In this document: piece by piece, positions 541-32,375 of the stretch
How the letters are laid out: each line of letters begins with the position of its first letter
How positions within the stretch are numbered: the stretch's first letter is position 1
Source of the DNA: a virus
Virus record (IMG/VR): IMGVR_UViG_3300044984_001107
Location: 1 to 33,385 of that record
Direction: 5' to 3' (one strand)
DNA length: 33,385 nt
Position numbers and translations under genes: made by a program
Notes under the pieces: generated by a model
Seen by the model: only the letters and a program-made list of their open reading frames with translations
Told to the model about the DNA's origin: nothing
Databases searched by the model: none

Positions 541-765
541 TTATTTTTTAGCACATTTGTAAGTTTCAGTGAAATAGCCATCAGATACCGAACGCATAGA
601 TTCTAAATTATTATCATCTAAACTATAATCAGCCCCATAATAATTCCCGTCACCATCGTAACATTTGACTTTCCAATAAATCGTTCCACTTGGTAATTGC
701 TTATGAATTTCAGTCCATTCTTTTAAGCCTTCGTAAACCTCTGTTGATTCTAATAAATTTGTCAT
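541..765 (-). CDS. Hypothetical 74-aa protein, first gene after the 0.8 kb promoter
   Basis: The open frame extends to 804, but the -7 box of a clear promoter lies at 790-797 inside that extension. The start must therefore be the internal ATG at 765 (MTNLLESTEVYEGLKEW), about 18 nt after the predicted transcription start, behind an A-rich leader. The protein is acidic and aromatic with the segment KCYDGDGNYYGADYSLDD in the middle, possibly a beta-rich fold, and ends YKCAKK. No family is recognised. It heads a late mini-operon of four small genes running off the window. Confidence 0.7.
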   Translation of the reverse strand: MTNLLESTEVYEGLKEWTEIHKQLPSGTIYWKVKCYDGDGNYYGADYSLDDNNLESMRSVSDGYFTETYKCAKK

Positions 766-782
766 AATATTTTTAATAATTG

Positions 783-820
783 TATGGAGCAAAGATACAT
801 TCATTCACATCATTTCCAAA
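783..820 (-). promoter_or_regulatory. Bacteroidetes-type promoter (late promoter copy A)
   Basis: On the minus strand a -33 box TTTG (820-817) is followed after exactly 19 bp by the -7 box TATCTTTG (797-790), a full match to the Bacteroidetes consensus TTTG-N19-TAnnTTTG. Transcription should start near 783. The initial transcribed stretch CCATACAATTA is identical to that of the promoter at 21.3 kb, and both have an AT-rich tract just upstream of the -33 box. It lies in the 150-bp gap between the holin-like gene and a set of tiny genes. Confidence 0.8.
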
Positions 821-857
821 TTTTAATTTTTAAATTTGAAAATAAATTGACATAGTT

Positions 858-879
858 ATTATAACTTGCTGAAAATCAA
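858..879 (-). promoter_or_regulatory. Conserved 22-bp upstream element (copy A), possible activator site
   Basis: The minus-strand sequence TTGATTTTCAGCAAGTTATA plus AT lies 37 bp upstream of the -33 box. A copy matching at 19 of 22 positions sits at exactly the same distance from the promoter at 21.3 kb. The core TGA-N3-TCA is a dyad, as expected for a dimeric DNA-binding protein. That it is an activator or operator site is inference from conservation and spacing. Confidence 0.55.
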
Positions 880-1448: not shown

Positions 1449-1552
1449 ATCAAATCGCATACAAATGATGTGATAAATGCAGTTGCCTCCTCAAGTCTGT
1501 GCTTCCAAGTTTTCTTGCAGAAAACAATGATGAATAATAATGACTCACTCAT
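1445..1552 (-). CDS. 35-aa micro-protein coupled to the endolysin
   Basis: This short frame starts with ATGA overlapping the stop of the M15 peptidase and ends with ATGA overlapping the start of the next gene, strong evidence that it is translated. The product is MSESLLFIIVFCKKTWKHRL followed by EEATAFITSFVCDLI: a short hydrophobic start, a basic centre and an amphipathic end with two Cys. It resembles no family I know. Membrane association within the lysis cassette is plausible. Confidence 0.55.
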   Translation of the reverse strand: MSESLLFIIVFCKKTWKHRLEEATAFITSFVCDLI

Positions 1553-2004
1553 AATACTGGATACCCCCCAATCATCTTTGCTTTTTGCAATGCTTTAATT
1601 GAATATCCAAATGTCTTTTGAAAATGTGGCAAGTCAAGAAATTTCCAATCTCCACCCCACTCCCATCCATATGATTTAAAGATTCTCACAACTTCCATCC
1701 AATCAGCCAGACCATCTTTGTCAAAATCTTTTGTGGTGTCATAAGATACCTTACCATCCACAATGAATGCAATGTCAATTGCTAATCCGTAGTTGTGATA
1801 TGATTGACCTCCTCGACTATTGGTGACTATCTTGCCAGATGTTGTCCTTCCTTTGGCATATAAGCCATTCTGTTCCTCATTTGAACGATGTGTATGAGTG
1901 AACACACAATCAATGCTTAATGCCTCGCATATCTCTTCATAGATGTGCTTGGCTTCATTCCTTAAGTTTGGATGGAGCAAATCGATTCTTTCCAATGTTT
2001 TCAT
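1549..2004 (-). CDS. M15-family peptidoglycan peptidase (endolysin) with EF-hand loop
   Basis: This 151-aa protein resembles VanY/L-alanyl-D-glutamate peptidases, which cleave peptidoglycan stem peptides. Zinc ligands are visible as H70 and D77 in SYHNYGLAID and H127 in DLPHFQ; GWEWGGDW (113-120) holds the probable catalytic E115. Between these motifs lies a 12-residue loop, D93-F-D-K-D-G-L-A-D-W-M-E104, with every canonical EF-hand calcium ligand. The phage T5 endolysin, also M15, is known to be calcium-regulated through a comparable loop. No signal peptide is present, so it should depend on a holin. Its start overlaps the upstream gene by 50 nt, but the N-terminus (LERIDLLHPNLRNEA) is family-typical, supporting this start. 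Confidence 0.9.
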   Translation of the reverse strand: MKTLERIDLLHPNLRNEAKHIYEEICEALSIDCVFTHTHRSNEEQNGLYAKGRTTSGKIVTNSRGGQSYHNYGLAIDIAFIVDGKVSYDTTKDFDKDGLADWMEVVRIFKSYGWEWGGDWKFLDLPHFQKTFGYSIKALQKAKMIGGYPVL

Positions 2005-3943: not shown

Positions 3944-4129
3944 TTAAGTCCAAGTTGTTGTAATTAAATTCCAGTTAGTTGTGATTAATTGCCATTCAGT
4001 TGACGGAAAAGGAGTCATCGGTATATATGTCAATGTCACATTCTGTCCAGCAAGAGTATAACTCCCTTGAGTGACAATCAGTTTCTTTTCTGGTGTCGGT
4101 GTGAATGTTATATATAACTGCTCTCTCAC
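3944..4129 (-). CDS. 61-aa protein with one GxYxLxGQ repeat
   Basis: It contains one copy of the repeat found eleven times in the gene before it: VTQGSYTLAGQNVTLTY near residues 19-35. A Trp/Thr-rich tail (TEWQLITTNWNLITTTWT) follows. Its ATG overlaps the upstream stop as ATGA. It may be a detached terminal module of the repeat protein, working in the same virion structure. Function unknown. Confidence 0.65.
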   Translation of the reverse strand: MREQLYITFTPTPEKKLIVTQGSYTLAGQNVTLTYIPMTPFPSTEWQLITTNWNLITTTWT

Positions 4130-4971
4130 GATGTTATGAAATACCTCTTTCTAAATAATGTAGTAATCAGTTGAATCTCTTTGCCAGTAAGACCATATTG
4201 ACCCTTTGACAAAGATAGAAATTTATTATTAATAAATGAAACTTCCTCACCAGTCAGAGAATAATCACCCTTACTAATTGATAGACGGATATTTTGCAAT
4301 AATTGAACATCTGTTCCAGACAATGTATATTGACCCTTAGACATCAACAAATAATGCTGAACAACAAAATTAATTGCTTGTCCATATGAGATGTAGTCTC
4401 CTTTATTAATTGTCACTCTGGATGACTTAATTAATCCAACACTTTCTTTTGCAAGAGCAAAATTTCCTCTGTTGCAAACAAGTGTATATGCTCCAATTGT
4501 GCCATACACCAATGTCACATTCTGCCCAGACAAAGAATAACTTCCTTGAGCAAGTGACAATATCCTTCCTCTAATAAAGTTCAACCCTTGCCCAGCAAGA
4601 GTGTAATTGCCATTAGTTGCAGAAAGAAGTCTTTGTCTTAATAGATTTGCAGATTGACCAGACAAGGTGAATGTGCCTTGAGACATAGCAATCAACTTGC
4701 CTCTTAACACATTCACAGATTGCCCAGAATAAGTATATGCTCCTTGGTTATTAGTCAACAAATAACCTTGCTTTAATAGAGCCGTTTGACCATTGTATGA
4801 ATAACTCCCTTGATTCGCAGTAAGCAATCTTGTTCTGGCAAATAATAAGGATTGACCAGTCAATTCAAAAGCACCTTGAGACAATAACAAACTATAAGAT
4901 GATGCTGAACTTACAATTGGTATTTGTTTTAGTTCAATTGTCGCTCCATCAAATAATCTTCTTGATGCCAT
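4126..4971 (-). CDS. Repeat protein with 11 copies of a ~22-aa GxYxLxGQ unit
   Basis: The 281-aa protein consists almost entirely of units of the form (Q/K)G-x-(Y/F)-x-L-x-G-(Q/x)-x-(V/L)-x-(L/F) followed by seven variable residues, spaced about 22 residues apart, for example QGSYSYNGQTALL, QGTFTLSGQSANL and KGQYTLSGTDVQL. I count 11 units; unit 7 (RGNFALAKESVGL) is degenerate. The N-terminal half uses QG and the C-terminal half KG, which suggests stepwise duplication. Copies are diverged at DNA level. The pattern suggests a repeated beta-hairpin or solenoid. Position points to a virion appendage, function unknown. Confidence 0.75.
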   Translation of the reverse strand: MASRRLFDGATIELKQIPIVSSASSYSLLLSQGAFELTGQSLLFARTRLLTANQGSYSYNGQTALLKQGYLLTNNQGAYTYSGQSVNVLRGKLIAMSQGTFTLSGQSANLLRQRLLSATNGNYTLAGQGLNFIRGRILSLAQGSYSLSGQNVTLVYGTIGAYTLVCNRGNFALAKESVGLIKSSRVTINKGDYISYGQAINFVVQHYLLMSKGQYTLSGTDVQLLQNIRLSISKGDYSLTGEEVSFINNKFLSLSKGQYGLTGKEIQLITTLFRKRYFITS

Positions 4972-21110: not shown

Positions 21111-21263
21111 TTATGCTTTGCTATATTCTTTTTGTAACCAGATTAATGTTTTTCTTAATTCATTGATTTGTGATTGTGGAAAGTTTCTTTCAATCATTGC
21201 TTCAATTCTTACATTGGTGCTTTTCATTTCTTGTGCGATTGATTCTTTAATTTCGTTGTTCAT
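21111..21263 (-). CDS. 50-aa helical protein, first gene after the 21.3 kb promoter
   Basis: ATG at 21263 to TAA at 21113-21111 encodes MNNEIKESIAQEMKSTNVRI followed by EAMIERNFPQSQINELRKTL and IWLQKEYSKA, a charged helical protein with coiled-coil character. The start lies about 20 nt after the predicted transcription start, behind an A-rich leader like that of the gene at 765. The next gene starts 11 nt after its stop. Family unknown; a regulatory or scaffolding role is possible. Confidence 0.7.
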   Translation of the reverse strand: MNNEIKESIAQEMKSTNVRIEAMIERNFPQSQINELRKTLIWLQKEYSKA

Positions 21264-21281
21264 ATTATTTATATCTAATTG

Positions 21282-21319
21282 TATGGTACAAAGATATACC
21301 TATTATCCATATTTACAAA
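21282..21319 (-). promoter_or_regulatory. Bacteroidetes-type promoter for the virion operon (late promoter copy B)
   Basis: On the minus strand TTTG (21319-21316), a 19-bp spacer and TATCTTTG (21296-21289) give a full consensus match. Initiation is expected near 21283, with the CCATACAATTA start region identical to the 0.8 kb promoter. The AT tract upstream of the -33 box is also nearly identical. It lies in the gap between terminase and virion genes and should drive the roughly 20 kb virion and lysis block. Confidence 0.8.
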
Positions 21320-21356
21320 TTTTAAATTTTAAATAATCAATTATTTTTATAGAATG

Positions 21357-21378
21357 ATTATAAGATGCTGATAATCAA
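21357..21378 (-). promoter_or_regulatory. Conserved 22-bp upstream element (copy B), possible activator site
   Basis: The minus-strand sequence TTGATTATCAGCATCTTATA plus AT matches the copy at 858-879 at 19 of 22 positions and lies exactly 37 bp upstream of the -33 box in both. Its dyad TGATTATCA suggests a dimeric protein. It overlaps no coding sequence; the terminase stop is 13 bp away. Confidence 0.55.
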
Positions 21379-21390
21379 TTGACTTATTTT

Positions 21391-22551
21391 TTATCCGAAT
21401 GCATACTTGCCATAGTTTGGATTGCCAACTGCTTGAGTCATTCCATATCGGAGGGCATCCAGCAAGTGATTGTTGTAATCTATTGGCACACCAGTCGGCT
21501 TGTTATTCTTGTCAACATCCCAGACATATGACCTCAACTCCTTAATTAGATTGGTGCTTCTTGATGTGACAAGCAAGTTTTGTTTCTGGATTAACTGGAT
21601 GCCAAAGTTGATTGAGTCCTTTCCTTTGGTCGCTCCAACACACTTCAATCCATAACTCTGCAACTCTGCAATTGATTTAGGCTCTGCACTATCACACACC
21701 ACCAACTCACGGATGTCTTTCAATTGGTGATAGATGTCTCGGTTGCTCAATCCCTTTTGATAGATTAACTCATCCAGAATGTATTGGTCATTGTACTTGT
21801 ATATGGCAACTGCTCCAGTCGGGTCAACTGAATAACCAAAGTCAAGACCAACCATCACCATCCTTGCTTCGGATGGAATCGTATCAATTTGTTTCCAATC
21901 TGTGAAGATTGTTCCTTGGACTGCTCCGACTTGTCCGAGACCATAAACCTTAAACCAATTCTCCCAATACTTGGATGTCTTCGCTTTCTCTTGTGCTGAC
22001 TCTATATCTTGCACAATTGATTGTGGCAATGCTTCATTGTCCTTATAAGTTAGAATAATGAAGTCGGAATCCTCATCGTTTATCAATTCTTGATGCACCC
22101 AAAATTCGGCTGATGGATTATAGTCAAGCCAGATGTGATGTGATGTTCTTATTGCCAACTGGTGATATGATTCAAATGTCAAGTTGTTTGCCTCGTTTAC
22201 ATAGAGAATGTTTCTCCTTGCTCCTCTTAACTTACTCTCTTGGTCAGCACTAAAAAACTCAATGAAACTTCCATTGGTGAATGTGTATGTGAGCAATGTC
22301 TTATTCCATCTGTCTTCCGAATACCTATTTGTCCACTCCATAATTTTCAAGAAATCTTTGATACAGCCCCTACGCAAATGTGGAATGCTCTCACTCACAA
22401 TGCTTATCTCTGTTCTTGGATTCTTGATGGCATAGTCAATAAGGATTGGAATGATTCCGAATGTTTTTCCAGCCGATGTTCCACCTTGCACTATCCTCTT
22501 TCTCTTGGATAGTTTCAACAACTTGTTTATCGCAGTTGTCCGTTTGAACAT
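21391..22551 (-). CDS. terL: Terminase large subunit
   Basis: This 386-aa ATPase-nuclease packages DNA into proheads. Walker A is GGTSAGKT (23-30) and Walker B NILYVNE (114-120) with catalytic E120. The C-terminal nuclease carries D237 in GLDFGYSVDP, D287 in VVCDSAE and D365 in NHLLDALRYG, the expected RNase H-like acidic triad. It is of the PBSX/Terminase_3 type. ATG overlaps the small-subunit stop as TAATG. Unlike most phages, no portal gene follows it; the portal lies 11 kb further downstream. Confidence 0.95.
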   Translation of the reverse strand: MFKRTTAINKLLKLSKRKRIVQGGTSAGKTFGIIPILIDYAIKNPRTEISIVSESIPHLRRGCIKDFLKIMEWTNRYSEDRWNKTLLTYTFTNGSFIEFFSADQESKLRGARRNILYVNEANNLTFESYHQLAIRTSHHIWLDYNPSAEFWVHQELINDEDSDFIILTYKDNEALPQSIVQDIESAQEKAKTSKYWENWFKVYGLGQVGAVQGTIFTDWKQIDTIPSEARMVMVGLDFGYSVDPTGAVAIYKYNDQYILDELIYQKGLSNRDIYHQLKDIRELVVCDSAEPKSIAELQSYGLKCVGATKGKDSINFGIQLIQKQNLLVTSRSTNLIKELRSYVWDVDKNNKPTGVPIDYNNHLLDALRYGMTQAVGNPNYGKYAFG

Positions 22552-28962: not shown

Positions 28963-29084
28963 CCTTCTTTTTCTAATTGTTTAATTTTCTTTTCAACTGC
29001 TCTTGCATCATAGATGATTTCATAATTCACTATTTTGTCCTTTGAATATTCAATTACGGCTGGTTGTTTCTTTAAGTCTTTCAT
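28935..29084 (-). CDS. 49-aa hypothetical protein bridging the DnaA-like and HNH genes
   Basis: ATG at 29084 to TGA at 28937-28935 encodes MKDLKKQPAVIEYSKDKIVN followed by YEIIYDARAVEKKIKQLEKE and GWQVKIMIR. It overlaps the previous gene by 35 nt and the next by 28 nt and fills an 87-bp gap. The helical, charged ending looks like a real small phage protein, but overlaps this long on both sides make it less certain. Confidence 0.4.
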   Translation of the reverse strand: MKDLKKQPAVIEYSKDKIVNYEIIYDARAVEKKIKQLEKEGWQVKIMIR

Positions 29085-29523
29085 TTATTAAATTTACTAT
29101 GGTGTCATATGTTTTCTTGTAAGTTTTTGAAAATTCGTAGTCAGCATCGTGTGTGTTGATTGAATGAATAATGGTTGAATGGTCGTGATTACATTCCAAT
29201 GTTATAGATATTGATTTATATGCTAATTTGGTATTTTGTCTCATCCATTTATAATACATATTTCTACCAGATACAACTTTCATCAATCTCACTTTGACAT
29301 CAATATCAATCTGCATATACTCATTGATTATGTCTTTGACTATATCATAATCAGTTTGGATGTTGTTTCTTTTTGGTTTTTTGAGTCTGGCTTGTAAGAG
29401 CATATTCTTGTTTACCAATGATGTGCATTTTGTTTTTAGAATTTTGTAATTGTGAAGCAGAGTTTTGTATAGTCTTTTATACTCTGTATTGATGTATTCT
29501 TCTGAATCTTGAGTTGTTGTCAT
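29050..29523 (-). CDS. DnaA domain IV-like DNA-binding protein
   Basis: This 157-aa protein has an N-terminal coiled coil (EYKRLYKTLLHNYKILKTKC) and a C-terminal helical domain (residues about 57-150). DHSTIIHSI (114-122) matches the DnaA box-binding signature DHSTVLHA, with preceding helices VSGRNMYYKWMRQNTKLAYK and SISITLE. It lacks the AAA+ ATPase of DnaA. It may bind DnaA boxes of host or phage and either help initiation or interfere with host replication. It overlaps the preceding gene as ATGA. Confidence 0.75.
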   Translation of the reverse strand: MTTTQDSEEYINTEYKRLYKTLLHNYKILKTKCTSLVNKNMLLQARLKKPKRNNIQTDYDIVKDIINEYMQIDIDVKVRLMKVVSGRNMYYKWMRQNTKLAYKSISITLECNHDHSTIIHSINTHDADYEFSKTYKKTYDTIVNLINERLKETTSRN

Positions 29524-31764: not shown

Positions 31765-32375
31765 TGGTCATCTGCTCCTTGCTTTATTGGTTGTTTTAAA
31801 ACTTGCATCTTGTTCTCTTCTTTAAACCATACACCTTGCATTTTCTGTTTCCAATTTTTTACTTTCTTTCCCTTGCTATCTGTCCAGTTTGCAGTTGCGT
31901 AATAGTTATATGCTTTCTTGCCTATCTCTTGGCTATATCCATTCTCAAGAAAATAAGCAACAACATCCTCCATACTTATTTCTTTTTTACTTTGTTTATT
32001 AGTACTTTGTATGTTAGTACTTTGTAGTGGTTGGTTTGCCGTTAACGGCTTTTCCGTATACGGCTTATCCATCGACGGCTCTCCGTTATACGGCTTATCG
32101 TATACAATGTGAGAATAAGTGAATTGTCCTTTATCATTTACCTCCTTTATGGATATGACATATCCTTGGTCTTGCAACTCCTTAAATATCCTATCCAGTT
32201 TCTCCCTTCCAATGCTCAACTTTGTATGCAATTGAGTCTTATATATAACCCAATCGTGAGGAAGAGACAAGAAGTATGATAGCAATCCAATTGCTTCAAT
32301 TGATAATCCACTGGTGAATATCTCATTCGGGAGAATAGTGTAGTTTGATGCGTGTTTTGATTTTATTATTGACAT
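31758..32375 (-). CDS. Winged-helix replication initiator (lambda O-like layout)
   Basis: The frame extends to 32474, but the natural start is ATG at 32375 (MSIIKSKHASNYTILPNEIF). Residues 1-90 are a winged helix with a recognition region LSIGREKLDRIFKELQDQGY. Residues 93-132 are a linker of 5-residue repeats (DKPYN, GEPSM, DKPYT, EKPLT, then QSTNI, QSTNK). Residues 135-205 form a conserved C-terminal domain (DVVAYFLENGYSQ; WKQKMQGVWFKEE). This layout, with DNA repeats in the middle of the gene, matches lambda O. It should bind the origin and recruit the primase-helicase encoded next. A terminator-like hairpin lies just before the start. Confidence 0.8.
   Translation of the reverse strand: MSIIKSKHASNYTILPNEIFTSGLSIEAIGLLSYFLSLPHDWVIYKTQLHTKLSIGREKLDRIFKELQDQGYVISIKEVNDKGQFTYSHIVYDKPYNGEPSMDKPYTEKPLTANQPLQSTNIQSTNKQSKKEISMEDVVAYFLENGYSQEIGKKAYNYYATANWTDSKGKKVKNWKQKMQGVWFKEENKMQVLKQPIKQGADDQW
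31985..32100 (-). repeat. In-gene 15-bp-period repeats: candidate replication origin
   Basis: Four exact copies of ACGGCT (plus strand) begin at 32045, 32060, 32075 and 32090, a perfect 15-bp period with similar flanks (GTATACGGCTTATC-like). Next to them, three copies of a CTTTG-containing 15-bp unit begin at 31990, 32005 and 32020 in a very AT-rich stretch. GC-containing iterons beside an AT-rich unwinding region inside the initiator gene is the lambda O/ori layout. Since 15 bp is 5 codons, pure protein-level repetition is the alternative. Confidence 0.6.

Follow-up and report, generated by a model that had tools for sequence, protein, structure and literature searches.

Twin promoter modules with a putative helically phased upstream element in an uncultivated Bacteroidota phage

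Promoter modules and gene context

The DNA analysed here, referred to as the window, is the 33,385-nucleotide record IMGVR_UViG_3300044984_001107 (positions 1 to 33,385) of an uncultivated Bacteroidota phage. It is without end repeats and is likely a fragment. The main genes are all encoded on the minus strand. These include genes for a DnaD-like initiator and a primase at the right, a terminase, virion genes, and an endolysin. Two promoter modules, A (763-879) and B (21261-21378), are both oriented to the minus strand. The features of the two loci are as follows, where d is the distance between the first positions of the 22-mer and of the -7 box.

541-765, minus strand: 74-aa ORF, first gene behind A; no Pfam match; ortholog in the relative G451 (2153-2374)
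790-797, minus strand: -7 box of promoter A, TATCTTTG (TAnnTTTG consensus); predicted start ~785
817-820, minus strand: -33 box of promoter A, TTTG, by sequence match
821-857, minus strand: AT-rich tract of 37 bp in module A, between the element and the -33 box; 24/37 identical to B
858-879, minus strand: upstream element (22-mer) of module A, TTGATTTTCAGCAAGTTATAAT; d=82, in phase with the promoter
1549-2004, minus strand: endolysin gene, upstream of module A (phrog_2649, E=1.5e-32)
21111-21263, minus strand: 50-aa ORF, first gene behind B; no Pfam match
21289-21296, minus strand: -7 box of promoter B, TATCTTTG; predicted start ~21284
21316-21319, minus strand: -33 box of promoter B, TTTG, by sequence match
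21320-21356, minus strand: AT-rich tract of 37 bp in module B, by sequence comparison with A
21357-21378, minus strand: upstream element (22-mer) of module B, TTGATTATCAGCATCTTATAAT
21391-22551, minus strand: terminase large subunit gene (phrog_2, E=4e-39), ending 13 bp before element B
29050-29523, minus strand: gene for a 157-aa protein with a weak match to the helix-turn-helix of DnaA domain IV (E=4e-4) and a DHSTIIHSI signature

Both modules have the same order of parts: the 22-mer, 37 bp, TTTG, 19 bp, TATCTTTG, CCATACAATTA, a short A-rich leader, and the ATG. They also share CATACAATTA. The 22-mers are identical at 19 of 22 positions and d is exactly 82 in both. A scan of the window with the 22-mer pattern returned two matches, A and B, and 100 dinucleotide shuffles returned 0. 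The twin module claimed in the preliminary description was therefore confirmed, with its equal 37-bp gap, its boxes, and its start stretch. The pair was also found by the repeat finder as the second direct-repeat family (777-895/21276-21394, 119 nt, 71% identity). It had been claimed as well that selection acts on the elements. In agreement with this, the boxes and the 22-mer are kept while the 19-bp spacers are identical at 9/19 positions, which is chance level (p=0.18). The promoters are nevertheless partly alike outside the elements, since the AT-rich tract before TTTG is also conserved (p=0.003 in mononucleotide shuffles). Its likeness is concentrated in the half adjoining TTTG, where the last 22 nt, TTTG included, agree at 18/22 positions.

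The core boxes indicate the class of promoter. TAnnTTTG is present at -7 in both modules as TATCTTTG, and TTTG is present near -33, about 19 bp from the -7 box. The core of both modules is thus, as predicted from its boxes, an ordinary Bacteroidota primary-sigma promoter. It resembles the known sigma-ABfr / sigma-A promoters in both core boxes, their spacing, and the A-rich leader, but differs from them by the extra 22-bp element at phased distances. In the available sections of two papers on Bacteroidota promoters, no comparable upstream element is named (PMC7366714; PMC9723704). The -7 box is placed at -12 to -5 relative to the start (PMC9723704), and from this the starts are predicted at ~785 for A and ~21284 for B. 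The earlier estimate for A was ~783.

The genes behind each module can indicate what it serves. Behind the 50-aa ORF of B there is a 96-aa ORF and then the 201-, 196-, 412-, and 895-aa genes of the virion arm, and B is accordingly assigned to this arm by its position. Module A follows the last lysis-region ORF after 36 bp, close to the left edge of the window. What follows can be seen in two complete relatives, G448, whose first 40 bases recur at 36313, and G451, whose start recurs at its end. The order in G448 is virion genes, lysis genes, tiny genes, a homolog of the window’s left-edge gene, recombination and replication genes, terminase, and virion genes. Gene roles outside the matches to the window were taken from reading translations, and the left-edge gene homolog was matched by eye. 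In the region orthologous to A, both G448 and G451 lead from lysis and tiny genes through the left-edge gene to replication genes. Because of this gene order, A most likely heads a tiny-gene/replication (early) arm. Most of the other element-bearing promoters also precede tiny ORFs.

Two sets of repeats were noted elsewhere in the window. Tandem repeats of 15 bp (ACGGCTTATCC...) are present at 32045-32099, inside the DnaD-like initiator gene. Repeats of ~41 bp (family D1) are present at 4031-4748, mostly inside a 281-aa gene (4126-4971), and several of these are ~66 or 132 bp apart.

Spacing of the element in viral genomes

The 22-mer was found to be kept in relatives, as had been expected, and it recurs in related and in more distant Bacteroidota phages. 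Its consensus is TTGATTWTCAGYnAGTTAnAA. An exact-pattern scan of viral contigs returned 91 stretches. These gave 65 distinct sites, with clusters at 61-62, 71-73, and 82-84 bp in the distance between the 22-mer and the -7 box. No such clusters were found when the same 65-site analysis was applied to the control strand. Two further scans of viral contigs, each with the gap free over 31 positions, are samples from which only the matches listed were used. Among the matches listed there are 172 non-redundant viral sites, most of them from the scans with a free gap, and the distances peak at 61-62, 72-73, and 82-83 bp. Three narrow windows hold 70 of the 132 distances between 50 and 108 bp among these matches, as compared to an expectation of 18.6% (p=9e-19); these windows were chosen after the distances of the 65 sites had been seen. 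The cluster means among the matches listed are 61.8, 72.4, and 83.3 bp, a step of 10.7 bp. A simple Rayleigh fit over 55-90 bp gave a period of 11.4, which is probably pulled by background and by the window edges, and the cluster means are preferred. Many of the element-bearing phages are akin to each other, so the sites are partly dependent even after thinning.

The in-phase sites look like promoters. In these, TTTG stands ~22 bp ahead of the -7 box and the leader is A-rich, and both features are missing from the out-of-phase sites. Among the matches listed, 45/64 sites with TTG at -33 are in phase, as compared to 25/68 sites in which it is absent. It had been proposed that the element would be found in related phages at a fixed 37 bp from the -33 box, with random distances as the alternative. 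A fixed spacing was rejected, as the viral sites cluster at three phased distances. The spacing is neither fixed nor random and proceeds in steps of about 10.7 bp.

Orthologous promoters provide natural spacing variants. Orthologs of module B were identified with d=82 in L152/L157 and L424 and with d=61 in L007, in all cases between homologs of the 196- and 412-aa genes. The promoter half of L007 is almost identical to that of L152, and a clean gap of 21 bp, or two turns, separates them in otherwise alignable DNA. Orthologs of module A in the complete relatives have a degenerate element at d=72 (G451) and d=71 (G448), both counted by hand, as compared to 82 in the window, which places them one turn closer to the promoter. 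Copies inside one phage also vary, with 71/82/82 in G440 and 62/82 in G446. In many relatives, one of the A/B positions has no element that can be recognised. Where orthologous promoters carry the element, the helical phase is kept. These natural variants (~62, 72, and 83 bp, and orthologs 21 bp apart) make the mechanism testable in a reporter.

One further site in G448 (19032; L437/L438) has a weaker element (16/21) at an in-phase d=61. The promoter that it precedes is found behind the primase gene and two genes ahead of the gene for the DnaA-like protein.

Possible mechanism and alternatives

It appears probable, at roughly 0.7, that each module is a primary-sigma promoter with an upstream activating element, a putative protein site dependent on the face of the helix, and that the two modules head the two arms. 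A sequence-specific DNA-binding protein would occupy TTGATTWTCAGYnAGTTAnAA, which is centred near -63, -74, or -85 relative to the predicted start. Recruitment of RNA polymerase would be aided only when this putative protein and the promoter share one face of the helix. The element could then tolerate the gain or loss of DNA amounting to one full turn or two. Activation would be similar to class I, with the protein either touching the polymerase or bending the DNA in phase. The tiny gene at the head of each arm would be boosted in this phage, that of the tiny-gene/replication arm by A and that of the virion arm by B.

There are known systems of this type. In E. coli, CRP and other class I activators work from sites at -61.5 or farther from the start (PMC2859248). 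Modules A and B are similar to these promoters in having a site upstream of the -35/-33 box at whole-turn spacing, and the clusters at 61.8, 72.4, and 83.3 bp (among the matches listed) are those of a helically phased upstream site. They differ in being from another phylum and in having another sigma consensus. The element is not a CRP site, as TGTGA-N6-TCACA is absent and TTGATTWTCAG has the spacing TGA-N3-TCA in the logo. Fis or IHF sites in E. coli can also give an upstream, phase-dependent boost to strong, growth-related, and phage promoters, and the element resembles them in its upstream position and its putative phase dependence. The IHF consensus is WATCAA-N4-TTR, or YAA-N4-TTGATW on this strand. 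An IHF site was rejected, since ATT (A) and AAG (B) stand in place of YAA.

Other explanations of the modules were considered. The preliminary description had called A a late promoter and tied its genes to the virion regulon. It is unlikely that the module marks a late (virion) regulon. B and its orthologs do lie inside a run of virion genes, so B has the position of a promoter before virion or lysis genes, but A, by synteny in the complete relatives, most likely heads the early arm and leads to replication genes. The boxes of both are those of the primary-sigma consensus, and other phages place the module before tiny genes and methyltransferase cassettes. Neither a late-sigma nor a virion-only signal is supported, and no evidence was obtained for a late-only regulon. 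The element common to A and B suggests instead that both arms would be activated together. A displaced UP element is likewise improbable. Here, the C-terminal domains of the RNA polymerase alpha subunits would bind the 22-mer and no separate activator would be needed. Phased binding of upstream DNA is known for these domains, and the AT-rich tract between the element and the -33 box is conserved. UP elements consist of A/T tracts at -40 to -60, and it is the AT-rich tract that lies there; the 22-mer is positioned beyond this, at -52 to -95, with the furthest positions far for direct contact, and G and C occupy fixed positions in it (TTGAT..TCAG).

The likeness of A and B could also come from common descent, with the pair being a recent duplication of a mobile promoter cassette. 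The 71% identity over 119 nt and the similar AT-rich tracts are consistent with this, and promoter families inside one genome, such as that of G440, resemble copies. Against this, the spacers are at chance level while the boxes and the 22-mer are kept. In addition, orthologs of B are found at a nearby site and orthologs of A have a separate history, so the pair is older than the phage. A recent duplication is thus given little weight. The promoter boxes are short and AT-rich, as would be needed for a chance match or an artefact of AT-richness. The absence of the pattern from the shuffles, the spacing clusters, and the independent promoter features make such an origin extremely improbable. The reading of the modules as promoters with a phase-dependent activating element is preferred.

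Descriptions of Bacteroidota promoters are usually confined to two short boxes, and a phase-dependent upstream activating element is absent from the literature that was found. No description of the element was found in the literature searched, with most subscription journals outside the reach of the search. The element points to a putative activator and offers a route to phage promoters in metagenomes. It could also serve as a part in expression tools for gut and environmental Bacteroidota.

Candidate binders and related motifs

The protein that would bind the element could be encoded by the phage, in which case the element would define a phage regulon that switches both arms at a set time. 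Phages often have the strict element with a promoter, whereas hosts almost never do, with 2 matches in 395 Bacteroidota genomes. The window, G448, G451, G421, G406, and G430 each encode the small protein with the weak signature of DnaA domain IV. This 157-aa family is widespread in terminase relatives, but it is absent from G443, G438, and G413 and is present in phages that have no strong element, G451 among them. It was rejected as the binder because its presence does not follow the element. Only terminase and tape-measure-like families appear common to G443, G438, G413, G421, and G448, as read from the family list of complete element-bearing genomes (BLASTP, E<1e-4). A phage-encoded activator is possible but doubtful.

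A host factor exploited by phages appears the more likely binder. The pattern YTGATTNTCAG before TAnnTTTG has 23 matches in the 395 Bacteroidota genomes, as compared to 1 for the reversed pattern, and a looser form with the promoter has 44, as compared to 7 for reversed controls. The genes behind the host sites, named from reading translations, encode ribosomal protein S1 (in several lineages), L13, CTP synthase, ArgS, and a BlaI-like regulator, with rpsA and rplM recurring. A phase test of the few host sites was not significant (V-test p=0.35). There is an excess at 70-74 bp (9/19, p=0.0014, post hoc), and the rpsA sites, at 60-68, mostly do not match the phage register. When 30 rpsA and 30 rplM promoters from unselected genomes were inspected, a usable element was found in 0 of the rpsA and ~5 of the rplM promoters. 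The exact 21-mer was found in 41 stretches, ~38 of them Bacteroidota by title, and mostly away from promoters. RNA family and tRNA scans of the host sites returned nothing relevant. A host factor borrowed by phages is the favoured candidate. More specifically, the element may be the site of a Bacteroidota-wide putative activator of growth-related host promoters (rpsA, rplM) that many phages have copied in a stronger form, a proposal that is put forward tentatively, at somewhat less than even odds. If true, promoters of the phylum would include a phase-dependent part besides the sigma boxes.

A BlaI/MecI-like regulator gene of Bacteroidota hosts, in L477, L478, L479, and L564, has a conserved promoter with the element at d=72-73. 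These promoters also share a TATCACTAAAAAA-TAGTTGTTTGG block.

Searches with the window and with the bare motif were also made. No phage DNA close to the window was found at the megablast level. The nearest terminases from isolates are those of Fpv5-like Flavobacterium psychrophilum phages (57%), and Fpv5 itself was scanned and has no such module. A BLAST search of the bare 30-mer against phages returned mostly chance matches, along with copies in crAss-like and Bacteroides phages that have no promoter behind them. Palindromic copies of the motif, with no promoters, were left aside and appear to be a different type of repeat. A related motif of a more palindromic form (TTGATTATCAGCAAGTTATAAC...GTTGATTTTCAATGGGTTAT) is repeated in arrays in four viral contigs (L103, L110, L133, and L139). 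No promoter follows these arrays, which may represent an origin or a different repeat. In the csAssE-Sib crAss-like phage (L434, ~1800-1960), there is an intergenic cluster of near-palindromic TTGATTATCA sites in both orientations.

Small proteins with the pattern RGGxRxGAGxKxKY...TKTVAFRxPLSK were noted in the contigs G404, G413, G429, G430, G432, G435, G438, and G440 (L455-L471). These are perhaps ribbon-helix-helix proteins. Their genes are found a few hundred bases behind element promoters, and some are near DNA methyltransferase genes.
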